21,481 bases of DNA from Acidithiobacillus montserratensis (GTDB lineage Bacteria > Pseudomonadota > Gammaproteobacteria > Acidithiobacillales > Acidithiobacillaceae), in the NCBI RefSeq assembly GCF_018853465.1, contig NZ_JABBOU010000113.1, forward strand, positions 1 to 21,481, read 5' to 3'. Position numbers and translations under genes: made by a program. This document shows, piece after piece, positions 57 to 13,489 of the stretch. The notes beneath the pieces are model-generated. The model saw only the letters and a program-made list of their open reading frames with translations, had not been told where the DNA came from and searched no databases. Numbering within the stretch: position 1 is the stretch's first letter; each line of letters starts with the position of its first letter.

Positions 57-1192
57 ATGACCGACATTTTTGTTAACCATGCCGATTTTCCTCGCGGAAA
101 AACGGTGAAACTTTAGATCGTGAACTAGGCTTAAGAAATCGTAATCAGGCGTTCAATCCGATCACTAGGCCAACGCTCTTCTACCCTATTTTTGTTAATC
201 CACACTCCGGTGATGTGGATGTTGTTTCTTCTAATTTGAATAGTGTAGAGGTCTTGCCCGTCACAGCAGATGGAGTTAAAACATGCTGGACGTGGGGTAA
301 GATAAAAGTTGCCAACGAGAAGTCGCTGTTAACAGCCAAACAAGTGAGCGATGGCACATGGCGGGTTTTCAGAAAAGACTACCTTGAAAAGATTGACGGT
401 TCTATTGCAACGACGCTGCCGAAGTCTTTATGGGTCGAAAAGGAAATGAACAATGATTATGGCAGAAGATCGCTTCAAGAGTTGTTAGGGGATTCAATTG
501 TAGAATTCCCCAAATCACCATTCTTAATAAACAAGATCGTTGAGGTTGGCATGGGAAAAGACGGCCTTGTCTTAGATTTCTTTGCCGGTTCTGGAACTAC
601 AGCCCATGCCGTCCTCGACTTCAACAAGCAGGATGGTGGCAACCGCAAGTTTATTCTGGTCCAGCTACCAGAGCCTACCGACCGCACCGATTACCCGACC
701 ATCGCAGATATCACCAAAGAACGTGTCCGTCGTGTCATCAAAAAACTGAACGACGAGGACGGCAACGGAAAGAGTCAGGATCGTGGCTTTCGGGTCTTCA
801 AACTAGCGGAATCCAACTTTACACCGTGGGATGGCTCCATCGACCAATCACCGGAAGCCCTATCCCGGCAGATGGAGATGCACATTGAGCACGTCCGCCA
901 GGGCCGCACCGACGAAGACATCCTCTACGAAATCCTGCTGAAAAGTGGCTTCCCTCTGTCTATTCCCGTGGAGACCCTGCAAGTGGACGGGAAAACTGTC
1001 TATAGCATCAGTGACGGCATCATGCTGGTCTGTTTGGACCGGAACCTGAGCATGCCCTCGGTGCAGGCTATCGTGGACCGATTGCCAGAGCGGGTTGTTT
1101 TCCTCGACGAAGGCTTTGCCGGTAACGATGCCTTGAAGGTGAACGCCAAGGAAGCCTGCAAACTGAAAAACATCGTGTTCAAGGTGGTTTGA
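57..1192 (+). pseudogene. mod: Type III restriction-modification methyltransferase (Mod), 5'-truncated remnant
   Basis: This is the C-terminal part of a beta-class adenine DNA methyltransferase, the modification and recognition subunit of type III systems. A continuous frame runs from about 77 to the stop at 1190-1192; the longest ORF with a recognised start begins at a GTG at 215, but homologous-looking sequence (GLRNRNQAFNP, then YPIFVNP) extends upstream without a start. The SAM-binding motif DFFAGSGTT is at 575-601, preceded by a PKSP..L segment typical of the family. The DPPY catalytic motif, which lies N-terminal in this class, is absent, so roughly half of a normal 550-650 aa protein is missing. 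A 19-codon ORF at 57-113 in another frame (containing FPRGKTVKL) may be more of the same gene shifted by one base; this is tentative. Stops at 48-50 and 74-76 close both frames. The res gene starts 4 bases downstream. Methylation activity is very unlikely. Confidence 0.8.
66..198 (+). repeat. 11-bp direct repeat in the mod remnant
   Basis: ATTTTTGTTAA occurs at 66-76 and again at 188-198, and an inverted 8-base relative (TAACAAAA) lies at 5-12. The second copy encodes IFVN of the Mod YPIFVNP motif. The copies could have mediated a small rearrangement at the broken 5' end of mod, or be chance in AT-rich DNA. Confidence 0.3.
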
Positions 1193-1196
1193 CGGC

Positions 1197-2054
1197 ATGA
1201 AAATCCAGTTCGACGCCAACCAGCCGTTCCAACGCATCGCCGTATCCGCCGTGGTGGACCTTTTCGATGGCCAGCCCCGTGCAGAAGATGCCTTCACTGT
1301 CACCAAGTTCACAGGGGATGCCTTTGGCAGCCTTGGTCTTGGAGCGGAACAGTCAGAATTGGGTCTGGGCAATCGCCTGTTGATTGATGATGCTATTTTG
1401 CATGCCAATGCCCGGAAGATTCAGGACCGTAATGACATCGAGCATCCTGATCCGGCACAACCGTTGGAAGGCTGGACACTCTTTGATGCCATCGCCAACC
1501 AACCCCGGCTCTGTCCGCACTTTTCCACCGAAATGGAAACGGGTACCGGCAAGACCTACGTGTACCTGCGCACCATCTATGAACTGGCAACCCGCTACAG
1601 CTTCAAGAAGTTCATCATCGTGGTTCCCAGCGTGGCAATCCGTGAAGGTGTGCTGCACAGCATCGAGATTATGAAAGAGCATTTCCGGGGTCTGTATAAC
1701 AATCTGCCCGTGGAGCATTTTGTGTATGACGCCAAGAGGGTCAACCGGCTGCGGCAGTTCGCCACCAGCAATACGGTGCAAATTCAGGTCATCAATATAG
1801 ACAAATTTCGGAAAGACGATAACGTCATTTTCAAGGAAAGCGATAAACTCAGCGGTCGCCAGCCCATCGAGTACGTGCAGGCGGCTAGGCCCATCGTCAT
1901 CATCGATGAACCGCAGAGCGTGGACAACACCGACAAGTCCCAGGAAGCCATCAAGGCGTTGAATCCCCTCTGCACATTGCGCTATTCGGCAACCCACAAG
2001 AATCCCTATAACCTGTGGTGTACCGGCTGGACCCTATCCGGGCCTTTGACCTGA
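1197..2054 (+). pseudogene. res: Type III restriction enzyme Res, N-terminal part (frameshifted)
   Basis: This is the first part of the Res subunit, a superfamily 2 ATPase with a C-terminal nuclease that works with Mod. Walker A (TGTGKT) is at residues 115-120, the DEAD-box-like motif II reads IVIIDEPQ near residues 233-240, and motif III reads RYSATH. The normal frame ends at AAC CTG (2010-2015). The next residues (WCTGWTLSGPLT) are out-of-frame junk before a stop at 2052-2054. The expected continuation VYRLDP is found in another frame starting at 2018. Removing two bases (TG, 2016-2017) rejoins the halves into about 1,000 aa, near the usual Res length. The ATG lies 4 bases after mod with no clear ribosome binding site, which suggests translational coupling to mod. 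Confidence 0.85.
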
Positions 2055-4198
2055 AACTGGTGAAGCAAATCGTGGTTGCCAGTGTCCGGGCTGATGAAGA
2101 TGCACGGTACGGCTATATCCGACTGGATGAAGTGATCCCCAAAGCGAAATCCGTCAAGGCCAAATTGAGCGTCCATAAGCAGGGTCCCAAAGGCCCCAAA
2201 GTGTCTTCTATTTTGGTTGGGCAGGATGATGATCTGCACGTCAAATCCGGTGAAATGTCCGTCTACAAGGATGGCTACGTCATCACCGAAATAAACGCCA
2301 CCCCTGGCGATGAGCATATCCGGTTCGCCAATGGCCTGCGCATCAACATGGGCAAGGAAGTCGGCGGTGTGCAGGACGATGAGCAGCGGGTCCAAATCCG
2401 TCTGACCATCCAGAAGCACCTCGATAAAGAACTCATGCTGCATGGCCTGGGCAAAGGTATCAAAGTGTTGAGCCTCTTTTTCATCGACAGGGTCGCCAAC
2501 TACCGTACCTATGATACCGATGGGTATTCCATGCCTGGCCCTTTTGCTCGCATTTTTGACGAAGAACTGGCGGCCTTGGCCCAGGTTGAGAAGTACAGGC
2601 CGCTGACCTGGTTGCAGGACAGGGAGAACCTGGACAAGGTGCATAACGGCTATTTCGCCAAAGACGGCAAAGGCAAGCTCAAGGACAGTCGTGGAGACAC
2701 TCAGGCTGATGATGAGGTGTACAACCTGATCATGAAGGAAAAAGAGCGATTGCTGTCCATGGATGAACCATTACGCTTCCTGTTCAGCCATTCGGCGTTA
2801 CGAGAAGGCTGGGATAATCCTAACGTCTTCCAGATATGCACGCTACGGGAAATGGGCAGCGAACAGGAGCGCCGGCAGACCATTGGCCGTGGTTTGCGCC
2901 TGCCGGTGGACGCTGACGGCCTGCGAGTTATGGATGATTCCGTCAACCGGCTGACCGTGATCGCTAATGAAGGGTATGCCGCCTTTGCCGATGCCCTGCA
3001 AAAGGAATACGAGCGGGATTGCGGTGTCACCTTTGGGAAAATCCCCATGACAGCCTTGAGGCGTCTGTCTGTGATGGATGGCGACACCGAAAAATCTATT
3101 GGCCGTGACAAGGCAGAAGCCCTGAAGGCGGCGCTGGTAGAACAGGGGTATCTCGACCACGATGGCCGCATCCTGCCCGCCTTTGACCCCCAACGGCAGG
3201 GATTTCGTATTGTAGTGCCACCGGCCCTGGAAACTGAAGGCATTACTTCTGCGGACGTGATCGATCTGCTTTCCAAATACCGGATGGAACGGCATGTGCA
3301 GAAGGATAAGGACGAACGACCCAATCCCTTCAATAAGCAGGTGCTCCTGAACCCGGATTTCAAGGTGCTGTGGGATCAGATCAAACCTCGCACCCGCTAC
3401 CGGATTGGGTTCACTACAGAGGAACTGGTGAAGACTGCCGCCAAGGCACTCAAGGAAATGCCGGTCATCAAAAAACCTGTAGTACACGTAGATGAGGCCG
3501 CCTTACCCGTCGGTGGCGGCGGTGTGGGCACCAGAATGATCGCCAGTTCATCCATGGATGGCGGTTCTACGGTAACGGCTATTCCGGACATCATCGCCTA
3601 TTTGCAGGAAAGCACGGGGCTGACCCGGTCCACTTTGGCACTGATCATCAAACGGTCGGAAACCATGCAGCAGTTCATCAACCATCCTCAGCGGTACCTG
3701 GATCAGGTGGCGGCCATCATCAACAAGGAAATGGCCAGGCTGATTGTGGACGGCATAGAGTATGAACGAATCATGGTTGGCCCGGACGCCGAATGGGAGA
3801 TGCACCGGCTAGAGGAATCCGAAAAACTGGTAGATTACCTAACCAGCCTGAAAGTGGACCATCCCGACAAAACGCCATACCCCTACATCGAATATGATTC
3901 CCAAGTGGAGCTGGAATTCGCCAGAAAGATGGATAGTCGTGAGGACATTCTGGTTTTTGTGAAACTGCCTAAATGGTTCAAGGTGGATACCCCGGTGGGT
4001 ACCTATAACCCCGACTGGGCCATTGTGAAGCGGGATGACGTCGGTGAAAAGAAGCTGTATCTGGTCCGAGAAACTAAGGGCACCAAGGACATGAATAAGG
4101 TGCGCCCCGATGAGCGGGATAAGATCCGCTGTGGCGTGAAACACTTTGAGGCGCTTGGTGTGGATTATGACTATGCGGTGAATGGGGATGAGGTTTGA
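2015..4198 (+). pseudogene. res: Type III restriction enzyme Res, C-terminal part (helicase motifs and nuclease)
   Basis: This is the second part of the split Res protein. True homology starts at GTG TAC CGG (2018, VYRLDPIRAFDLKLVK). The apparent GTG start at 2015 has no visible ribosome binding site and is probably not used. Helicase motifs V (ALREGWDNPNVFQICTL) and VI (QERRQTIGRGLRLP) are intact. Near the C-terminus the PD-(D/E)XK nuclease signature is visible as YNPDWAIV followed by LVRETKGT. Every motif of an active enzyme is present across the two parts, so the single 2-base slip is the only visible lesion in res. It could be a real mutation, a phase-variable slip or an assembly error. 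With mod truncated, restriction would have no partner from this locus. Transcription probably continues from mod. Confidence 0.85.
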
Positions 4199-4364: not shown

Positions 4365-5039
4365 TTGATTAATAAATATTCACAACGATTTGGCGAACTA
4401 CAGATAGAAATGGATAAGGTTGAATCTACCCGCCATAAAAAACAAAGGCAGTCAGAGCATGGCAACATTACCGAAGTGGAGATGGTAGATATAGAGGCTT
4501 TATGCGAGTGGAGAATAAAGGTCAAAAACCTACTTGCCAAATCTTGTGGGCTGGAGTCTGAACATTACAGAGAATTTGTGCGGGCAGAAAAGTATTGTTT
4601 GATGGATACCACCTATAAAATGTTGTTGCGCATCCGGCCCATTTTCAAAGCGGCAAAAGAAGATTATGATGGCGGTTTTCTCACGTCTTTTAAATCATTA
4701 GTGCAGGCAGAGGTGTTCGATAATGTGCTGGAGCAGTCCGGTGAGTTGCTTTCATCTGGTTACCACGAGGCCGCAGCAGTTATAGCAGGAGTTGCGCTTG
4801 AGACTGGCCTCAGAGAACTTTGCAATAGGCACTCAGTAGCACATGGCAAGCTCAACAAGATGAACGATGATCTAGTTAAGGCAAGTGCGTACAATTTGCT
4901 TCAACATAAACGCATCACAGCTCTGGCTGATATTAGAAATAATGCAGCGCATGGCAATAAGGGGAAATTCACTGAAGAAGACGTGAGATTGATGATTCGT
5001 GATGTCGAGCAGTTTCTGGCTCAACATTTGCCTGACTGA
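4365..5039 (+). CDS. HEPN-fold protein, DUF4145-like
   Basis: This is a 224 aa cytoplasmic protein starting at TTG 4365, chosen because an AGAGGTG ribosome binding site (4354-4360) sits 4 bases upstream. The N-terminal half is helical and charged with no recognisable motif. The C-terminal half reads like DUF4145 (SSGYHEAAAVIAGVALETGLREL, then DIRNNAAHG) of the HEPN clan. The Rx4H signature is R191-NNAA-H196, the arrangement of RNA-cleaving HEPN domains. HEPN/DUF4145 proteins are frequent in restriction and toxin-antitoxin loci, as stand-alone RNases, adaptors or fusions. Here the gene follows a type III restriction locus and is 24 bases ahead of a DUF4238-like gene, so a two-gene operon is likely. 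Whether it is a nuclease or an inactive scaffold cannot be told from sequence alone. There are no membrane segments. Confidence 0.8.
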   Translation: MINKYSQRFGELQIEMDKVESTRHKKQRQSEHGNITEVEMVDIEALCEWRIKVKNLLAKSCGLESEHYREFVRAEKYCLMDTTYKMLLRIRPIFKAAKEDYDGGFLTSFKSLVQAEVFDNVLEQSGELLSSGYHEAAAVIAGVALETGLRELCNRHSVAHGKLNKMNDDLVKASAYNLLQHKRITALADIRNNAAHGNKGKFTEEDVRLMIRDVEQFLAQHLPD

Positions 5040-5063: not shown

Positions 5064-5858
5064 ATGGCCAAATATTCCGGCTTGCAGCCCGGTAATCCGC
5101 ACCAGATTACCCGAAAACAGCATATATTCCCTGCAAAGAGCATTGAACGATTCTGTGTCAACAACGCTGTTGACGTATGGTTGGTCAAGCAGAGTAAGAA
5201 GATTAGGGTGAACCAAAGGAATCCTATTTTCACAGGGAATCGTATATGGGATCATGCCACAGAGCGTGGTTCGTATGGTGTTGAAGCGGAGTTCCAGAAA
5301 ATCGCTGACTCTTGTGTTGATGACAAGCGTGATCACCTCGGCAAGGATGAGTGTGAAATAGTATCGGCCTTCTACGGACTTCTGCTCAGCAGGCAGGAAG
5401 TTTTGGACACTCCACGATCTCCAGCCGTTGTTCACGGTGTAACTGGTTGGGACAGGAGCAACTATCAAGATGAAATGGAGTATATCGAATCCCAAGGAGG
5501 ACACACCATCTGCCAAGTCGATGGTGTCGCCATCCTTGATGGAAGGCAAATAAATGGATTTTCCGTCTTTACAGGAATGGACCGTTTCCTTTTGGAAAAT
5601 CCGGGGCTGGAATGGGTCATGGCACATGCACCTTCAGGCATGGAGTTTGTCGTGCCAGACCGGTTTTCAAGCAGTATGAACGGTGTGCTGCAGCATTATG
5701 CTGCGATTCCCATAACGCCAGGAATCGCGCTCATTGCACCGACTGTCTTCCCGTATCCGCGCAATTTAACGGTTGGCCATATTAACGTTATGAATTCCAT
5801 AGCCAAAAAAATGTCACGAGCGTATTACTTCGCATCAAATCTTGTGGCGTTGCTATAA
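5064..5858 (+). CDS. DUF4238-like protein of unknown function
   Basis: This is a 264 aa soluble protein with ATG at 5064; an earlier ATG at 5051 runs into a stop at once. Its pattern resembles DUF4238. The N-terminus has RKQHIFPAKSIERF (compare the family's KxHxxPxxxLxxF), followed by NPIF, then an acidic helix (IWDHATERG, EAEFQKIAD). The C-terminus has a P-ITPGIAL strand and HINVMNSIAKKMSRAYYFAS. The fold and reaction of this family are not known to me. DUF4238 proteins turn up repeatedly in variable and defence regions. It lies 24 bases after the HEPN gene on the same strand, which suggests co-expression and perhaps a functional pair (effector with partner or antidote). The family call rests on motif resemblance only. 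No membrane segments or signal peptide are visible. Confidence 0.65.
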   Translation: MAKYSGLQPGNPHQITRKQHIFPAKSIERFCVNNAVDVWLVKQSKKIRVNQRNPIFTGNRIWDHATERGSYGVEAEFQKIADSCVDDKRDHLGKDECEIVSAFYGLLLSRQEVLDTPRSPAVVHGVTGWDRSNYQDEMEYIESQGGHTICQVDGVAILDGRQINGFSVFTGMDRFLLENPGLEWVMAHAPSGMEFVVPDRFSSSMNGVLQHYAAIPITPGIALIAPTVFPYPRNLTVGHINVMNSIAKKMSRAYYFASNLVALL

Positions 5859-6356
5859 CCTGACAAGCTCCAATATTCACCCATTCTACGCCACCATCAC
5901 CCCCACCCCCATAAGCCGTGCCCACGCCGCCGTATTCTCATCCTCAATGGCCGGTGTGTCCGTTTTGGACAAAAAGCATCATTCTGAGCAAGCTTTGGAG
6001 TGGTGGCCTGTCAATAGTGGGCGGTCCCGTTTCAAGCGGCCCAGAGTGTGCCTGTGCATCTGACCTTGATGGACCAGCTGTAGATGATGATGCGTCTTTT
6101 CCGCCATGCGCGCTCCGAAACCTCCGATGAGGGGTTAAGACTGGTGGCGGCCATTGGGATAGGATAAAGTATGAGTCACACTCAAATTATCTAGTTGTGA
6201 GCGTAAGGTTTCACTGTCTCATGTGGGGGCGACAGCAGAAAAGAAAATACAACTTGACAGGAAATTTATTGAAGGCGCCACAAGGAATAGAATGATGCAT
6301 AAGGTACAGTTGTCATAAATTAGCTTTTCGATGGCTAACGCCCTAATAAGTGATAA
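5859..6356. other. Intergenic region with decayed coding remnants
   Basis: No intact gene is visible in these roughly 500 bases. The left half is GC-richer than the operon that follows. On the - strand a short open stretch ending at about 5892 reads as a possible C-terminus (SKTDTPAIEDENTAAWARL). On the + strand, just after an in-frame stop near 6081, a stretch reads MMMRLFRHARSETSDEGLRL and ends near 6169. Both look like fragments of former genes, but I cannot name them. The right half (about 6170-6350) is AT-rich, carries a TTGACA hexamer near 6254 without a well-spaced -10 box, and presumably includes the promoter of the receiver/kinase operon. Confidence 0.4.
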
Positions 6357-6368
6357 AAGGTGAGCAAT

Positions 6369-6974
6369 ATGGCTTGGATTTTGGCAAACAAGGATTGGAT
6401 TTTTGGTGGCATAGGTATCAGCTTTTTTGGTTTAATAATATGGTTTTTCCATTTTAATTCGAGAGGAGGCGAATCTGATGCAGCAATAAACAACTCAACA
6501 AAAGTAGATGTAACGGTGAACAATAATACAGGTGATATTGTGTCAAAAGAGAACCAGAAATCAGGGGCTTTCAATATCGACACAGCAAAATCAAATACTC
6601 ACATACTGTTTGTTGATGATGAAAACTTCAGCGTTTTAAAGATAATAAAAAAAGCCGGATGGATACATACAAGAAAGGTTAAGGATATTGACAACATAGA
6701 TGGCAATGATGCGACATGGGCTGATATTTATTTTATTGATATACACGGTGTTGGCGCCAGTATGGAATTCCAAGAGGAAGGACTTGGGCTTGCACAAGCC
6801 TTAAAACGTCGATACCCCAAAAAAGGCCTTGTTATATATTCATCAAACCAGGATGGCGATATGTTTAATTCTGCATTAAATTTGTCTGATGCAAACTTAC
6901 GCAAAAATACAGAACCGCACGAGTTTTTGCGGACATTAGAAAATATCGCAGAAAGGATGCACAACGATAAGTGA
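6369..6974 (+). CDS. Membrane-anchored response-regulator receiver protein
   Basis: This is a 201 aa protein from ATG 6369, preferred over GTG 6360 because AAGGTGAG (6357-6364) is a good ribosome binding site for the ATG. One membrane helix spans residues 10-29 (KDWIFGGIGISFFGLIIWFF). A polar, Asn-rich linker follows (residues 36-75, including VTVNNNTGD), then a receiver-like domain (77-190). The key receiver residues are present: acidic pair D83/D84, phospho-acceptor candidate D124 in YFIDIHG, S158/S159 at the Thr/Ser switch position, and K179. There is no DNA-binding output domain. The short W..K.W(I/V)F.GIG anchor resembles those I recall on many small effector proteins of defence loci. 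It overlaps the next gene by 4 bases and is strongly AT-rich. A phosphorylation-controlled membrane protein is inferred; its output is unknown. Confidence 0.75.
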   Translation: MAWILANKDWIFGGIGISFFGLIIWFFHFNSRGGESDAAINNSTKVDVTVNNNTGDIVSKENQKSGAFNIDTAKSNTHILFVDDENFSVLKIIKKAGWIHTRKVKDIDNIDGNDATWADIYFIDIHGVGASMEFQEEGLGLAQALKRRYPKKGLVIYSSNQDGDMFNSALNLSDANLRKNTEPHEFLRTLENIAERMHNDK

Positions 6975-7990
6975 AAACAAGATATGCTCTTTATGATAAA
7001 GAAAAAAAACTGGTCTTCGGAAACTTGAATGATGAAGACATTAAGATATTAAATTGCCCACAACAAAAAGACGTGACAAGAGAATACAGATTTTGCAAAA
7101 TGTGCTCTGAAAATGGCGAAATAAAAATTATATCATACGACAAAGATATTGTCGCAAGCTCAAAAAGAATTAACTCCTTAGCTTTAACGATTCTTAATTC
7201 AACGGGCTACATAATTGAAAATATAAATTGCGCGTCCCGAAAAATATCTAACGATAACAAGAAAATATTGCATAATATAGTTTCAATAAGCGCACATATT
7301 ACTCAGGACATATATAGTTTTTTTGAAGTGCAAGACACCCCTTACAATGCAGAATACAAAGATAAAGTAAAGAATAAATTGGCGCAACACCCTGAAAAAG
7401 CGGCAAACTTGTTATTCTTAATCACAAAGCATTCTGATTCTATAAGAGACGAACTGCTTGCTGTAGAGAGTATTTTCTCAGAACAATCAAATAGACTCAA
7501 CAAAATGCAGCACTCTGTACACAAAGTGCTGATGCACGTGTTGTACAGATTTAAAGTAGAATTTGATGATAAAAATATAAGTTGCTATCTACAAAAAAGC
7601 GATGTTATTGGTTTCTTTGATTATACAACAGTATCGTCAGCCCTATACCATATAATTGGTAACTTCGCAAAATATACGGAACAAGGAACGAAAATATCAA
7701 TCACATTATCTCACGACAATAAATCATTATATATTTCAATAAATGCATTTAGTTTGGCTATAAATGAAGACGAGGTTGACAAGATTTTTGGTGACGGCTA
7801 TTCAGGCAAGGTGCCAAGTCAATTGCGTAAATCTGGTAGTGGGATAGGGCTGTTTGTTGCAAATAAACTAATAAATGCAAATGGCGGCAAGTTATCTGTA
7901 ATCAGAGACAAAGGTGAAACACATACTGTTATTGGTATAAAATATCAGGAAAACGAATTTATGATAAAGTTACCCCAATCTTCTGGATAA
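6971..7990 (+). CDS. Soluble histidine-kinase-like ATPase (HATPase_c)
   Basis: This is a 339 aa protein whose GTG start at 6971 overlaps the stop of the receiver gene (GTGA), so translation is coupled. Residues 1-90 have no domain I recognise. An H-box-like helix with H101 (KKILHNIVSISAH) is followed by a helical region and an ATP-binding GHKL domain at about 215-330. The N box is HIIGNFAKYT (N231), and the G2 box SGSGIGLFVANKL (288-300) is clear. The G1 box is degenerate: where DxGxG is expected the sequence reads INAFSLAINEDE, so the adenine-contacting Asp appears replaced. There are no membrane helices; membrane localisation could come from its partner. The obvious role is the kinase or phosphatase of the preceding receiver. 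It may also be a pseudokinase-like GHKL switch. Base composition is AT-rich like its partner and unlike the recombinases. Confidence 0.75.
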   Translation: MKTRYALYDKEKKLVFGNLNDEDIKILNCPQQKDVTREYRFCKMCSENGEIKIISYDKDIVASSKRINSLALTILNSTGYIIENINCASRKISNDNKKILHNIVSISAHITQDIYSFFEVQDTPYNAEYKDKVKNKLAQHPEKAANLLFLITKHSDSIRDELLAVESIFSEQSNRLNKMQHSVHKVLMHVLYRFKVEFDDKNISCYLQKSDVIGFFDYTTVSSALYHIIGNFAKYTEQGTKISITLSHDNKSLYISINAFSLAINEDEVDKIFGDGYSGKVPSQLRKSGSGIGLFVANKLINANGGKLSVIRDKGETHTVIGIKYQENEFMIKLPQSSG

Positions 7991-8287
7991 AAAGAACTTG
8001 TTATAGACACTTGGTTGTTGGACACTTTTGGATCTGTTTCCCGCCTTGATTCTGTCCATCTGTCTGTTAACGGAAAAAAGGTATCATCCTCGACAAAATA
8101 GTTTCATCCCGTGGGTGCGGCATAAGTGGGTTATAAGCGGTCTGAAAACGTACAATCAACGAGTTGCGTTATTCTCAGGATGACACTTTTTGTTCTATAT
8201 CTCATCGGCGGCACGTTTAGCGGGCAATTTAAAGTTGCTGGATATATAAACCACTTTATTGCATTGCATGGCTTTCATGATGATACT
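7991..8287. other. Intergenic region between cargo and mobility module
   Basis: No convincing gene or RNA is seen in these 297 bases, which separate two gene blocks that converge (kinase +, small coiled-coil gene -). An open stretch of about 67 codons on the + strand (8126-8329) has no ribosome binding site and runs into the end of the opposite gene, so it is not called. No strong terminator hairpin was found. Confidence 0.4.
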
Positions 8288-8716
8288 TTATTCTTGGCGA
8301 ACAGTTACATTTCTATTAACTGCAGGTAAAGGCTTGTTCAGCACATCTTGGGTAACCCCCTTCAAGTGCGCATTATAGCTCCATGTAGCAAACCGCTCCA
8401 TTAGTTTATTATTTTCCATCTTCAGACGTTCATTCTCGCCTTCCAACCTAGCCACTCGGTCTTGCAAAACCTTCACTTCGGGCGGCACACTTTTGGCTGG
8501 TGTCTCTCCGACCTTCCCAGTCAGGACCCGTTTTCGGAGGTTAAAGGCGTTCTTGATGCGTTCGTGGTTGCTCAACGCCTGACGGGTATAGCTTGCCCTT
8601 AAGTGTTTGAGAATAGACTCACGCAAAAGATCCCAAGTCAATTTCCCAGACCAACCATCCAGGATGCCCACAATGCGATCCAGGTCCGCAGGTGTAATAT
8701 TTCGAGATCTACGCAT
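8288..8716 (-). CDS. Small coiled-coil accessory protein of recombinase module (GmtX/TnpC-like)
   Basis: This is a 142 aa protein and the last gene of the four-gene - strand set, starting 3 bases after the stop of the 669 aa recombinase. The N-terminal 70 residues look helical and DNA-binding-like (DLDRIVGILDGWSGKLTWDL, then YTRQALSNHERI). Residues about 83-110 form a coiled coil (VKVLQDRVARLEGENERLKM). Size, position and architecture match the small third component of Tn554-like (TnpC) and gamma-mobile-trio (GmtX) modules. In Tn554, TnpC influences transposition orientation and efficiency. For this protein an accessory role in recombination is inferred. I recognise the arrangement more than the sequence, so the GmtX name is tentative. 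Confidence 0.7.
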   Translation of the reverse strand: MRRSRNITPADLDRIVGILDGWSGKLTWDLLRESILKHLRASYTRQALSNHERIKNAFNLRKRVLTGKVGETPAKSVPPEVKVLQDRVARLEGENERLKMENNKLMERFATWSYNAHLKGVTQDVLNKPLPAVNRNVTVRQE

Positions 8717-8719
8717 ATT

Positions 8720-10729
8720 TCAATCTCTTTCAGGTTTGGTTTCTGACAGGTTTTTACGCTGCTCAAGGGCCTGTTCTAGCCGGGAGGCGGGCGCAACCGC
8801 TGCCGACATGATAACGGCCCCCACGGGCACGTTAGGGTCTTCCAAGATAGCACAAAGCTGATCGATTCTAGCCAGGGTGCGTCGTTGATACGCAACCCAC
8901 TTATTTGCCCCATATTCACAATCTGCTTCCGCCAAAGTGGCCTCCGCTAACAGTCGCCGTGTTTCATCCCGAAACCGCCGCAAAGCTTGAGTCTCAGCTT
9001 CATCACCTTTGACGCAGATCTGCTCATCACAGTTCAGGCAATCCTGGTGCAGGTGGCAGGGAAGCATGGCAAAGTCATGGATGCAGTAGCCATATTCGGT
9101 CGTATGGGCTGTAGGCACTTTTAACCGGGCGAACTCGTCCCGTCTTATAAGCGTGTCCGGCCGGATCCTGCCTAGGACGCTGAATCCTTTTTGGGAAGTG
9201 CGGGCTGTCTCGCGCGCCAGAGCCATTACATCCCGATCTGAGAGGTGGTCATAGGCCGAGTTCTGCCGCACATCCTTGCGGCCAGACCATTTCGCTATGT
9301 CCATCTGACTCAGTCCGCTCATCTGAGCCAAGGTGTTGAGGTAATGTCGGAACTGATGGGTATGAAGCTGAATTGGGCTACCGTCATCTTCCCGGAAGCC
9401 AAATTTCTCGAAGATGCTACGATTTAGTATCCGACCGAATCGTGAACCAATGTCCCCATGCATCACCGGATGGATAATGCTGCGATAAGTGGATTTATGA
9501 GGGGTTAGTTGGTTGCGATTCAAGACAAACAATGCCTGACTAAAACGCAGCCTTAGCTCCTTGTTAACCCAAGGAAAACCGGTAGGCAACAAGCTTAGCA
9601 AGGTCTGTTCAATATCCTTGAACTGAACATGGCTTGTCAGATTATTCTGGTCGGAACTCTTCCGCAGTTCAGTTGGCACCTTGTAACTGGTACAGAATTG
9701 GTGCGGCTTGAAGGCACTTTCTTCCGATAGCACCTCAGCCAACTCGGCCAGGGTGAGCCACTCCCTGTGCCGGAGATGCTCAAGCGACTCAGGCAGGTAC
9801 AATTGACCAGGATGGGCCTCATACCACGCAGCAATTTTGCGGCCCGGTGCTGACAGTGCACGTAACTTAGCAATCGCATCTTTAACCACATCGGTCATTG
9901 AAGGTAGGACCCACTTAATCATGGGTTCAGACCCCTTAGCAGGCCACCACCGAAGACCATATATCGACTGTCCGCTGGTGTCAGAGCCAGTCACCTCGCA
10001 TTGCTCAGGCAAAAGCAGAATCTCGTTGATGCGGTTTGGTGCTGCACATAACAACGCAGCTACGGAAGATACCAGTACATCGACCGGCTCCGAAGCCATG
10101 CTAAAGATAGTGCCTAGTGCGTTAAAGGCAGCAGGAGATGGCATCTTTTCAATGCGATGCCGGTCAAATTCGGCACCAACGCGAACCCGTTTATCAAGCC
10201 TCGACACCAACGGGGTGCGCCAAATAAATGCGTGGTGCAGCAGTTGGTGGTCCGCCATGAATCCGACAATCGTTTCCAACTGCCGACTCGTGTTGTAGGC
10301 CATCGCAGGACTGTATCGTTCCCGGAGAACGTTAACTGCGCGGTTAAGGTGTTCGCCGTTTAGTTCGCTAGGGTGCAGCCCCTGGAGGACATAGTCGAGA
10401 ACACGCAACGCGCCAAGCCGCTCCCCGAAGCCTTTGACGGGGCTGAGTGCCTGCCGATAACGAAGGTATGCCTTGGCGAAAGACAGAAATGGGCTGGCCA
10501 TGGGTACCCATTCGCTACGGCTGGACGAGTCCATCGTGCTGAACTTAAGGCGCGTGCGATGCGTCGTCGCCTTTAGCTCGATTGTCGACGATACGTCCCA
10601 GACATTGCTGTCGAAAGGCAGAGTGTCCCCGAACACGGTAAGTTGGCTCCGACAACACTCAATAAATTCGGCGAGATTATCTTTCGCACTTACCCCAACC
10701 TTCGGAACAAAATGAACAATGTTGCTCAC
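8720..10729 (-). CDS. Large tyrosine recombinase/integrase (GmtZ- or TnpB-like)
   Basis: This is a 669 aa site-specific recombinase. Its GTG start overlaps the stop of the upstream recombinase (GTGA), which indicates coupled translation. The catalytic set is complete: R233 (APNRINEIL), K265 (WWPAKGSEP), H458 and R461 (HTHQFRHYLNT), W481 (AKWSGRK) in place of the usual His, and the nucleophile Y493 (NSAYDHLS). A C-terminal Cys-rich segment (C549, C558, C564, C567, C572; including DCLNCDEQIC) probably binds zinc. The long N-terminal region (1-200) would hold the core-binding domain. At 669 aa it is much longer than phage integrases but in the range of Tn554 TnpB and of the large integrase of gamma-mobile-trio islands. 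It probably acts jointly with the two adjacent recombinases to move the island. Confidence 0.85.
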   Translation of the reverse strand: MSNIVHFVPKVGVSAKDNLAEFIECCRSQLTVFGDTLPFDSNVWDVSSTIELKATTHRTRLKFSTMDSSSRSEWVPMASPFLSFAKAYLRYRQALSPVKGFGERLGALRVLDYVLQGLHPSELNGEHLNRAVNVLRERYSPAMAYNTSRQLETIVGFMADHQLLHHAFIWRTPLVSRLDKRVRVGAEFDRHRIEKMPSPAAFNALGTIFSMASEPVDVLVSSVAALLCAAPNRINEILLLPEQCEVTGSDTSGQSIYGLRWWPAKGSEPMIKWVLPSMTDVVKDAIAKLRALSAPGRKIAAWYEAHPGQLYLPESLEHLRHREWLTLAELAEVLSEESAFKPHQFCTSYKVPTELRKSSDQNNLTSHVQFKDIEQTLLSLLPTGFPWVNKELRLRFSQALFVLNRNQLTPHKSTYRSIIHPVMHGDIGSRFGRILNRSIFEKFGFREDDGSPIQLHTHQFRHYLNTLAQMSGLSQMDIAKWSGRKDVRQNSAYDHLSDRDVMALARETARTSQKGFSVLGRIRPDTLIRRDEFARLKVPTAHTTEYGYCIHDFAMLPCHLHQDCLNCDEQICVKGDEAETQALRRFRDETRRLLAEATLAEADCEYGANKWVAYQRRTLARIDQLCAILEDPNVPVGAVIMSAAVAPASRLEQALEQRKNLSETKPERD

Positions 10730-12231
10730 GCAGGACCTACACGCTTAGCGTCACGACATAAGTGTACCACATCAGCCACTGCCAGAATTGTTCTGTCGTT
10801 GACTTCGGCAATCCGAGCATCCTGCAACAATTCCCTTCTGGCAATGAGGTATTCCAGTACTGCTTCATGCGGGCCATCCACCCAGGGTTGAAAGTTGGCA
10901 CAGGTATAGCACGCTACTGGAGCACCAAAACGGCAATACGAATTCTGGCCGCAGGAGCCCATTACAGCTCCACTGCGATCGATACGTAGGTCCAGGATAT
11001 GCTGAGTGCTGTTACGCTTAAGCTCGTCGGTTACATCGGTAACCAGCGTACCCTTGAATGCTTGGGCAATCGGCGCAAGCTGCAAGGCAAGCGCCTTGTC
11101 AATACGCTCAGCGATTTCTGGTACAGCCGCGACATATACCCCAACGTTTTGTGTGTCAGAATGGTCCAGCAATTCAGCAATGATCAACTCGCCATGGCCT
11201 TCTTGTGCCGCGCGGGTACCGAAGGTACGTCGGAAGCGGCGTGGATTGATATGTATACGCTTGCCGGTGCGCTCAGATACAACGATTAGGCGCTTCAACG
11301 CGTCGCATAAACTACGTGATAGCGCACCGGAGCAATAGTGGTAGTCAAAACCCATAGATGCCTCTAAGCGAGTTGGGTCCTTCATTGGAAATAATGGAGC
11401 CTGACTAGGATCAACCAGTACGTCTTTGAATTGGGCTTCAATTCGAGAGGCGTAGGCCCGTAAAGGCTTTCCTATCTGTGCAGCTAGTGGACGAACCTTG
11501 AATTGGTCTCGCTGTCCAGAAGAACCTCGCTGCTTTGCGCGCGGCACTCGAATGCTGAATGAATCCTTGCCCGTTGAATCCCGGTGATGTGTCACATCGG
11601 CAACCTTCATAGCAGCCAACTGAATGGGCCGACAGCCCAAGGCCATGAACAGCCAGGTCATAAAAAATATTGGCTCGGTCAACTCACCGACTGCAAAAGC
11701 AGAATTCACCGCAGCTTGAATGCCCTCCAGTTCGATACTGGTGAAAGGGCCTTCCTTCGGATCCATGGTCAGAACGGCAACGCCCTTAACGTGACCCCTT
11801 AGCCGTAACTGGCTTAGCAGGCGTGCCGCGCTATCCGTGATGCCTGGATATTGCAATGCATGCCACTTGTTCAGCAGGCTGCGTAGGTTGACCATGTAGC
11901 CGGCAGAAGGCACGACCTTGTAATTTAGCAAGGCAACGTCAGTAATCTCGGCCAATGCGCCGGAAACTACATATGTTTTCCGGATGAAATCCTTGAACGG
12001 GCCTAGGAGGCCGGAGAGACTGTTTGGCGACCGGTTGGTCAAGTACCAGCTTAGTACCGCCTTCAGCGATTCTCGCAGTTCCGGCGAAATTTCTATCATG
12101 TCTCGGAAGTTCACATAAATGTGGCTGGTCTCAACCCTGAAGCTCCACACATCCGAAGTAACGTCGAAGGCTTCGCCACTGCGCGTATGCCGAAGATTAG
12201 CGATGTTGGTGATCTGCGTATTAGATTTCAT
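10726..12231 (-). CDS. Tyrosine recombinase with C-terminal Cys motif (GmtY- or TnpB-like)
   Basis: This is a 501 aa recombinase whose ATG (12231) lies 11 bases inside the preceding recombinase gene. Catalytic positions are R201 (ALGCRPIQL), K233 (VPRAKQRG), R334 (RRFRRTFGT), H357 (LLDHSDTQN) and Y366 (VGVYV). At the first His of the HxxR box the residue is Arg (R331), a variant that I recall as common in this integrase subgroup, so activity is still plausible. A Cys cluster follows the catalytic domain (C427, C433, C441, C444 within GSCGQNSYCRFGAPVACYTC), a likely zinc site also typical of Tn554-class proteins. The N-terminal 160 residues resemble a SAM-like core-binding domain. Operon position and overlaps suggest the three recombinases act together. 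The GmtY assignment is inferred from order and size. Confidence 0.85.
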   Translation of the reverse strand: MKSNTQITNIANLRHTRSGEAFDVTSDVWSFRVETSHIYVNFRDMIEISPELRESLKAVLSWYLTNRSPNSLSGLLGPFKDFIRKTYVVSGALAEITDVALLNYKVVPSAGYMVNLRSLLNKWHALQYPGITDSAARLLSQLRLRGHVKGVAVLTMDPKEGPFTSIELEGIQAAVNSAFAVGELTEPIFFMTWLFMALGCRPIQLAAMKVADVTHHRDSTGKDSFSIRVPRAKQRGSSGQRDQFKVRPLAAQIGKPLRAYASRIEAQFKDVLVDPSQAPLFPMKDPTRLEASMGFDYHYCSGALSRSLCDALKRLIVVSERTGKRIHINPRRFRRTFGTRAAQEGHGELIIAELLDHSDTQNVGVYVAAVPEIAERIDKALALQLAPIAQAFKGTLVTDVTDELKRNSTQHILDLRIDRSGAVMGSCGQNSYCRFGAPVACYTCANFQPWVDGPHEAVLEYLIARRELLQDARIAEVNDRTILAVADVVHLCRDAKRVGPA

Positions 12232-13489
12232 CCGGGCCCCCTTTGGTTAGGTTGCGTTGCATACCCAGTAATGCCTCGTTGGCCTTCCGCTGAATATGGC
12301 GCCTAGTGTAGGTTGCTGCGGTATTGGAGTGTTCGGACCATCCCATCAGTCTTGATCGCATTTTTTTCTCAAGTTCAGCGTCGACCTTGTTAGCATCCAT
12401 CATCAGAGAGAACTCGTCATTCCAAGTGTGCCTGAGCACATGTGGACTTAAGTTGGCAGGTAAAGACGGACACTTGACCCGAAGAGTTTCGAACACTCGG
12501 TTGATTGCCGATAAGGTTAATGGATCCCCAGTGCCACTTGCCACAAACAGGAATGGATGCCGCCTAGCTCCCTTAAACCTACGTCGCCAAGTCAGGATGT
12601 AGTTCCGAGTCAGGTCGCTCAACTCTTGGTCGAGCGGCAGCAAACGGTCTGCGGTCTTGGCGTTGGGCTGAGCTGCACGGGGGTCCTCGGGGGCGTCCGC
12701 TCGACGGGCAACCAGAACCTCGTTCTTTTGGAAATCGAGATCGGATACTCGAATGCCTAGGAGTTCTCCCCGGCGTATCCCCAGGAAAAGCAGGTACTGG
12801 ACCATCAAATTATTACGAACCTTCGTGTGGGCGCTTACCCAAGGGTTATCGGTGGAAACAGGAGAAATAACCGACAAGAGATACGCCTTATCGACAGCTG
12901 CTAGTCCCATACGAATACCGAAAGTGTTACGGGTTGACGGCGTGGGCGCACGCGCTTTCAGCGCTTTATTGACAAGCTCGCCTACCGATTTCAGGTTCAG
13001 GTAGGCATCCGGTGACGACATGCCGTGCAGCAACCGATATGTAACGCGCCAGGTTAGGTACTCTCTGATGTACCCGATACGAATGGCTATGGTGCTCCTG
13101 TCAGGGGATTTTGCCTTGCATCGCTTGGCATCACAACCAAGAACAGTACCGCTGTTTAGCGTGGGCCATCCCTCAGAAACGGCAGCCTCCAGGGTCAGTC
13201 CACATACTCTCAACAGCCCGTCCACCTCCGCCAGGCCCAGTAAGCGTCCCTCTTCCAGCCGTTGGTCTAGGTCCACATCATGGCAGTCCATGAACAGGTG
13301 CAGGAATGTGAGACTGCGCAGGGCCTGTTGAATTGTCGCGCTGGCTCGCCCGCGCGCACGTAACTCAGTCAAGGTGAACAGCGTTGGGTAATAAAGCGGC
13401 TCCCCCGTCTCACGACGTAACAGTATGGGAAATCTCTCCCCACTTTCGAGTAGGGCTATCTTGACTATGTAAGGCGTGGATTGATACAT
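12221..13489 (-). CDS. Tyrosine recombinase, first gene of the mobility operon
   Basis: This is a 422 aa integrase with all active-site residues: R239 (LGIRRGELLGI), K278 (NAKTADRLLPLD), H350 and R353 (SPHVLRHTW), W384 (LMGWSEHSNT) at the His/Trp position, and nucleophile Y394 (AATYTRRH). The N-terminal half (about 30-180) would be the core-binding domain. It is the promoter-proximal gene of four. Its stop lies inside the next gene (11-base overlap). The ATG at 13487-13489 touches the outer arm of the inverted repeat described at 13489-13555. No Shine-Dalgarno motif is seen within 15 bases upstream, so initiation may be weak. It resembles the TnpA-like first recombinase of Tn554 or the first member of 'recombinase in trio' elements. 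Confidence 0.85.
   Translation of the reverse strand: MYQSTPYIVKIALLESGERFPILLRRETGEPLYYPTLFTLTELRARGRASATIQQALRSLTFLHLFMDCHDVDLDQRLEEGRLLGLAEVDGLLRVCGLTLEAAVSEGWPTLNSGTVLGCDAKRCKAKSPDRSTIAIRIGYIREYLTWRVTYRLLHGMSSPDAYLNLKSVGELVNKALKARAPTPSTRNTFGIRMGLAAVDKAYLLSVISPVSTDNPWVSAHTKVRNNLMVQYLLFLGIRRGELLGIRVSDLDFQKNEVLVARRADAPEDPRAAQPNAKTADRLLPLDQELSDLTRNYILTWRRRFKGARRHPFLFVASGTGDPLTLSAINRVFETLRVKCPSLPANLSPHVLRHTWNDEFSLMMDANKVDAELEKKMRSRLMGWSEHSNTAATYTRRHIQRKANEALLGMQRNLTKGGPDEI

Follow-up and report, generated by a model that had tools for sequence, protein, structure and literature searches.

The contig NZ_JABBOU010000113.1 of Acidithiobacillus montserratensis, analysed here over positions 1 to 21,481 (21,481 nucleotides, hereafter the window), carries on its forward strand a two-gene unit of about 1.6 kb that is probably a phage-defence switch. 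Its first gene (6369–6974) encodes a response-regulator receiver fixed in the membrane, and its second (6971–7990), overlapping the first by GTGA, a soluble histidine-kinase-like partner. The pair is real, mobile and conserved; it is catalogued yet uncharacterised. The receiver matches the PADLOC-DB model PDC-M43A (PDLC04646) at E 5.2e-62 over residues 4–198 in the GTG-start reading, nearly its full length, and the product of the adjacent gene matches PDC-M43B (PDLC04647) at E 4e-72 over residues 1–336. PDC-M43, a candidate system with the same two-gene make-up as the window pair, is an unvalidated database model, and the accessible text of PMC12988326 describes such PDCs as putative, unvalidated candidates from a guilt-by-embedding approach. 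The original prediction, made from the window sequence alone, had taken the pair for something unknown, an idea that the catalogue entry softens. The name PDC-M43 is absent from the paper texts covered by our literature search, supplements lying outside it; a paper search with phrases such as ‘membrane-bound response regulator’ returned none, and the literature searches made found no function or mechanism for the pair. To the existing entry we add the pairing and co-variation of the two proteins, the conservation of their residues together with the loss of the G1 Asp, the retention of membrane attachment in most members despite differing anchor sequences, the cassette shared with A. ferrivorans and the two P2-like loci in the gpA–portal hotspot.

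The features of the unit are as follows.

6133..8060, + strand: mobile AT-rich cassette carrying the pair (blastn against the A. ferrivorans locus L040 and a search of 17 genomes of the genus)
6369..6974, + strand: membrane-anchored receiver, 201 aa, PADLOC PDC-M43A (E-value above, conservation, predicted structure)
6369..6455, + strand: N-terminal anchor with the motif W-I-x-x-N-K-D-W-I-F-G-G-x-G and one transmembrane helix, residues about 11–29 (conservation, hydropathy)
6456..6587, + strand: linker, residues 30–73, of low confidence (pLDDT)
6588..6971, + strand: receiver domain with the acidic pair D83/D84, phospho-acceptor D124 (codon 6738–6740), S158 and K179 (conservation, fold)
6971..7990, + strand: soluble histidine-kinase-like partner, 339 aa, PADLOC PDC-M43B, Pfam HATPase_c (HATPase_c 3.2e-10, PDC-M43B 4e-72, DHp-CA structure matches)
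6971..7141, + strand: small N-terminal beta-rich domain, residues 1–57, candidate sensor
7271..7276, + strand: His101-Asn102 in the DHp helix, candidate phospho-acceptor (invariance)
7661..7675, + strand: N box, Asn231, Lys234 and Tyr235 (invariance)
7745..7753, + strand: altered G1 box, Ala259-Phe-Ser261 in place of the canonical Asp-x-Gly (kinase alignments)
7835..7849, + strand: G2 box GSGIG (invariant glycines)

Conservation of the pair and its membrane attachment

The inverted anatomy that was originally predicted, with a one-helix anchor on the receiver and a soluble kinase, is what we observe in the window. The receiver has the characters of a two-component receiver—an acidic pair, a phospho-accepting Asp, the Ser/Thr and the Lys on a predicted (beta-alpha)5 fold—and thus the full catalytic residue set, with no output domain, again as had been claimed. 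In the predicted structure the anchor helix comprises residues 15–29 and leads into a linker which, judging from the model, is probably disordered (mean pLDDT about 50 at residues 31–60 and 69 at residues 61–70).

Ten aligned receivers served as the query of a pattern scan through 84,980 species genomes, which yielded 63 loci as a lower bound; 43 of them encode a receiver, and 20 match the anchor and linker part only. The claimed tight coupling of the two genes is borne out across this family, since the kinase gene adjoins the receiver gene in 41 of the 43 loci and the remaining two are cut by the end of their contig. Distances among the receivers and among the kinases are closely correlated (r 0.91 over 40 pairs; none of 2000 Mantel permutations reached this value). 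The truncated or frameshifted loci L046 and L080 were excluded from the structure alignments and the tree; L073 and L079 were further excluded from the co-variation, in which L016, L060 and L078 are missing for want of a kinase sequence, and the receiver structure alignment omits L060, L073, L078, L079 and L080. The kinase tree comprises Pseudomonadota, Bacteroidota and single members of several other phyla; because taxon labels cluster in it, recent exchange between phyla is not shown, and single odd placements exist.

The acidic pair is conserved in all 47 aligned receivers and the phospho-acceptor in 46, the sole exception being a frameshifted row, and, counting rows with a letter at the position, 44 of 45 have the Ser and 44 of 44 the Lys. 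Membrane attachment is mostly retained: a hydrophobic N-terminal stretch (KD17 >= 1.2) is present in 43 of the 46 receivers with a complete N-terminus. A strict form of the motif N-K-E-W-x-F-S-G occurs in 25 of the 47; others have close variants, and about ten receivers possess, by eye, unrelated anchor helices, some of them two. Such exchange of the anchor sequence while attachment persists suggests that the attachment itself matters.

An altered nucleotide-binding box in the kinase

The partner can be recognized as a histidine kinase by its DHp-CA structure matches and by His101, which, with Asn102, is invariant in 44 of 44 kinases (47 of 47 with the viral loci included). Its Bergerat ATP site is incomplete in terms of the N, G1, F and G2 boxes: the N-box Asn, Lys and Tyr are invariant (44/44), as are the G2 glycines in the 43 kinases with letters there, and the G1 DxGxG is lost, a change that the original prediction had missed. 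The position of the G1 Asp is taken by Met in 41 of 43 kinases and by Ala in two, the window kinase and its closest relative, and that of the first Gly by Ser in all 43 kinases that reach the box; the 44th, L046, ends before it and lies outside this count. Canonical DxGxG was found in none of the 47 family kinases, a count that includes the viral loci as well as the truncated L046. Of eight ordinary kinases taken for comparison, seven could be aligned at G1, and all seven retain the Asp, as do four of five aligned PDB chains (two of them versions of HK853), the fifth, 7zp0 (CusS), having Asn.

The G1 Asp contacts adenine in the GHKL fold. Its loss suggests that the base is recognised differently or less well while phosphate and metal are still bound, and it is no proof of a dead kinase. 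It does make a rival explanation serious, in which the pair is again an anti-phage module, with a kinase-like protein that no longer makes its own phosphoryl group and acts as a phosphotransferase or phosphatase, for which ChpT and Spo0B are models, or as a responder to nucleotide levels, the anchored receiver serving as a scaffold or sink rather than as the toxic part. The family-wide G1 substitutions, set beside the Asp kept by ordinary kinases, argue for this explanation; the invariant N-box residues and G2 glycines, which suggest that nucleotide is still bound, and CusS, in which a residue other than Asp is tolerated in a kinase, argue against it. We regard it as doubtful, though deserving of attention.

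The small domain preceding the DHp helix is a candidate sensor, for which we claim no fold, since the structure matches cover residues 1–80 poorly. Of 47 members, 21 have in it the pattern Cys-x2-Cys-x(2-4)-Cys...Cys, which may be a metal or redox site; the window kinase lacks the pattern, so any such sensing is not general.

Mobility and genomic context

The pair lies in an AT-rich cassette (GC 35.6% against 53.4% in the remainder of the window), and the whole 1.93 kb at 6133–8060 is 92% identical by blastn to a stretch of Acidithiobacillus ferrivorans DSM 22755 that stands in a different context, adjoining an integrase and other genes without counterpart in the window. Two short segments, 6004–6155 and 8063–8227, recur in several Acidithiobacillus genomes; they are contiguous in one of these (G016) and here flank the pair on either side, being possibly insertion-sequence remnants that border the cassette. 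Further afield, the pair is carried by a Shewanella conjugative plasmid and by an E. coli IncF plasmid, where a NACHT-domain gene lies about 5 kb away, and it spans the origin of a 6.2-kb Kosakonia plasmid; a blastn search with the E. coli plasmid version returned nothing from the collection of complete E. coli genomes.

If the pair were a normal two-component system of the host, doing housekeeping work, this would account for the kinase–receiver fold and residues. The distribution of the pair, present in 2 of 17 Acidithiobacillus genomes and, at E <= 1e-10, in 3 of 398 genomes of a phylum sample (the window's own, G228 and G381), is too patchy for such a role, its surroundings differ within the genus, it resides on plasmids and P2-like contigs, and it has no output domain. 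At the looser threshold of 1e-3 the phylum sample gives 23 of 398 genomes, the weaker matches looking, by their ranges, like generic receivers or anchor-only matches. We have rejected the housekeeping explanation on the patchy distribution and mobile contexts, and consider it very improbable.

The strongest pointer to defence is the position of the pair in two viral contigs. Two pattern scans of 2.9 million viral contigs found three loci, L037, L038 and L039. The contigs of the latter two are collinear and P2-like, with two proteins matching each of the integrase, gpA nickase, portal, terminase, scaffold and major head families. The gpA of L038 shares about 82% identity with its counterpart in Peduovirus P2, and the L038 portal is 82% identical to P2-like portals. 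In both contigs, unlike in the window, the pair lies in the interval from the replication gene gpA to the portal gene. The gpA–gpQ interval has been described as a hotspot where gene content is diverse and anti-phage systems are found; in P2 it holds old and tin (Rousset et al., PMC9122126). In the related Escherichia phage pro147, gpA is followed by reverse-transcriptase genes and by a membrane effector of the retron Ec48 type. L039 also contains DprA-like and phosphoribosyltransferase-like genes (8549–10094, by eye) within the same gpA–portal interval as the pair. L037 is a phage-like contig of another kind, where the pair follows genes that look, again by eye, like tail genes.

The probable defence role claimed in the original prediction is thus supported, indirectly, by the PADLOC candidate model, the two P2-like loci, the plasmids and the patchy occurrence in the genus. 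Consistent residence in defence islands, also expected from that prediction, is not what we find. PADLOC families at 1e-10 numbered 277 among 143 neighbours and 17 among 122 control genes of the same genomes, where two of 20 control regions (L113 and L118) had been excluded as lying near a pair on the same contig, and one very long protein of 123 as well. These families are redundant, and a few control proteins also fall under 1e-15 (models IetA, mad3, PycTM and TRIP13), which makes the contrast modest. We accordingly rejected a pure defence-island reading, the individual scan of 20 nearest large neighbours having given only two matches, and we base the case for defence on the PADLOC model and on residence in the P2 hotspot. 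Among the first 25 of 39 PHROGs families matched by the 143 neighbours, integrases alone had more than one member.

Several observations weigh against an anti-phage module with the receiver as its membrane effector. Clear PADLOC matches (1e-15) were obtained for only 2 of the 20 nearest large neighbours scanned, out of 40: an HsdS and a Drt2 reverse transcriptase. Many of the 143 neighbours are ordinary genes (Pfam, first 25 of 130 families). The pair is rare in viral contigs, and the P2-like receiver used as the query had no match among 50,697 phage records; the window kinase gave partial, low-identity matches in 22 records, and among the 20 listed none covers 80%. Residence in the P2 hotspot is no proof of defence because only part of the hotspot cargo is proven: eight further systems were cloned from it, of which three were active besides old-tin (PMC9122126). 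As for the proteins themselves, the loss of the G1 Asp makes ordinary ATP-driven autophosphorylation doubtful. Three receivers (L067, L068 and L081) have no N-terminal anchor and bear instead a C-terminal extension of about 60–90 aa, with the same kind of kinase adjacent. A membrane output is therefore not universal, and these three may represent a second subtype with another output.

Could the pair serve the mobile elements rather than defend against other phages? A device for their maintenance or regulation, through addiction or the control of superinfection or conjugation, would fit its presence on plasmids and P2-like contigs, as well as the integrase gene and the HigBA-like pair (by eye) near the A. 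ferrivorans copy. The anti-phage cargo known from the gpA–gpQ interval, the many ordinary genes beside chromosomal copies and the lack of any conserved partner seen beyond the kinase speak against this explanation, which we deem unlikely.

Possible mechanism

What could be the output of such a pair? We saw no third gene conserved with it and no DNA-binding or enzymatic output, which makes the receiver itself the simplest output. We therefore favour, at an even chance of being right, an anti-phage two-component module that moves horizontally and whose membrane effector would be the anchored receiver itself, once phosphorylated. A soluble kinase dimer would register an infection-linked change through its small N-terminal domain, become phosphorylated on His101 and hand this phosphoryl group on to Asp124 in the receiver, which a single helix with a flexible tether would keep at the inner membrane. 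Phosphorylation would drive the receivers into dimers or oligomers and so cluster their transmembrane helices, and the clustered helices would then harm the membrane or collapse its potential, which would halt the infection. We infer the dimerisation, the phosphotransfer, the cue, the membrane damage and the protection, and the same applies to the action at the membrane through receiver oligomerisation that the original prediction had suggested.

A more specific version joins all these elements. The response regulator would be an immune membrane effector; the nucleotide pocket of the kinase would have lost adenine recognition, so that the kinase might sense nucleotide levels or draw on a different donor; phosphorylation-driven clustering of the anchors would breach the membrane; and the anchor (N-K-E-W-x-F-S-G-x-G followed by a helix) would be a plug-in part common to several other two-gene systems. 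Taken as a whole, this version is tentative and has a limited chance of being correct.

The anchor motif outside the pair

The motif N-K-[ED]-W-x-F-S-G-x-G with its helix recurs without a receiver in the 20 remaining loci of the species-genome scan (L082–L098 and L100–L102) and looks like a general plug-in membrane part. The PDC-M43A model scores the anchor alone in 7 of 10 such receiver-less proteins, at 1e-4 to 1e-9 and over their first part only. In nine loci (L087, L088, L090, L092, L094, L097, L098, L100 and L101) the anchor is, by eye, a free peptide of about 57–88 aa, directly followed in seven by a protein of 300–390 aa, five of these seven sharing a recognisable start. It is fused to TPR-like repeats in L082, L095 and L096 and elsewhere to unknown domains. 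PADLOC gave no match for ten proteins beside the anchor in eight receiver-less loci, and the anchor alone, as a query against the protein database, had one weak match besides itself.

A further arrangement is seen in L084 (2–2400), where a kinase-like fragment, a receiver protein and a separate anchored protein of 170–175 aa form, by eye, one apparent operon, that is, a second two-component-like layout with the anchor on a protein of its own. Neither the kinase-like fragment nor the receiver protein of this locus has a PADLOC match.

Other genes of the window

Upstream of the cassette lie type III restriction-modification genes (215–4198). The mod gene, near the contig start, covers part of its model, and the res coding sequence is apparently split between two frames near 2015–2054, which may reflect a broken gene or an assembly error. 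They are followed by a 224-aa protein (4365–5039) with sub-threshold HEPN/DUF4145 matches and a 264-aa protein (5064–5858) without a Pfam match, the start of which (‘NPHQ...KQHIFP’) resembles DUF4238 by eye only; a DUF4238-domain protein protected against T7 in an earlier study (PMC9122126). Downstream, 8288–13489 looks like a multi-recombinase mobile element: its minus-strand genes encode proteins of 422, 501 and 669 aa and then a coiled-coil-like protein of 142 aa. The first two match phage-integrase models (the 501-aa protein NCBIfam NF041502 at 4e-152), and the 669-aa protein is without a clear match.

Comparison with known systems

The pair shares its DHp-CA and receiver folds with HK853, WalK, HprS and the CheY-like receivers. 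It differs from canonical sensor kinases in that the membrane attachment is on the receiver and not on the kinase, and from canonical kinases generally in the HN that replaces HE or HD in the H box and in the lost G1 Asp.

Two-component signalling is a textbook means of gene regulation, and to our knowledge its use in immunity is known mainly from Detocs. In that system (DtcA/DtcB/DtcC) a histidine kinase and one or more receiver proteins serve defence (PMC11728103); its three genes include a buffer receiver and, apart from it, a response regulator. Compared by description, the window pair has the same combination of histidine kinase and receiver; unlike Detocs, it shows a single receiver, which is membrane-anchored and has no effector domain. 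No second receiver was met among ten window proteins compared with PDC-M43A or nine compared with Pfam, which misses even the known receiver, and none of the PADLOC models matched by window proteins bears the name Detocs. An HATPase and REC combination is also named, in the legend of Fig. 6F, among the predicted, unvalidated systems of DefensePredictor (PMC13092281), and from the accessible text it may or may not be the PDC-M43 family.

If our preferred reading of a phosphorylated, anchored effector is true, phosphotransfer can drive a membrane effector directly, in a pair without DNA-binding output that phages carry in an anti-phage hotspot. The conserved loss of the adenine-contacting Asp poses the question of what the kinase binds or senses. 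In design the pair resembles one-helix membrane effectors of other immune systems, such as Cam1 of type III CRISPR, whose switch domain binds a cyclic oligoadenylate. Both combine a soluble switch domain with a single membrane helix, and in the window pair the switch would be phosphorylation.
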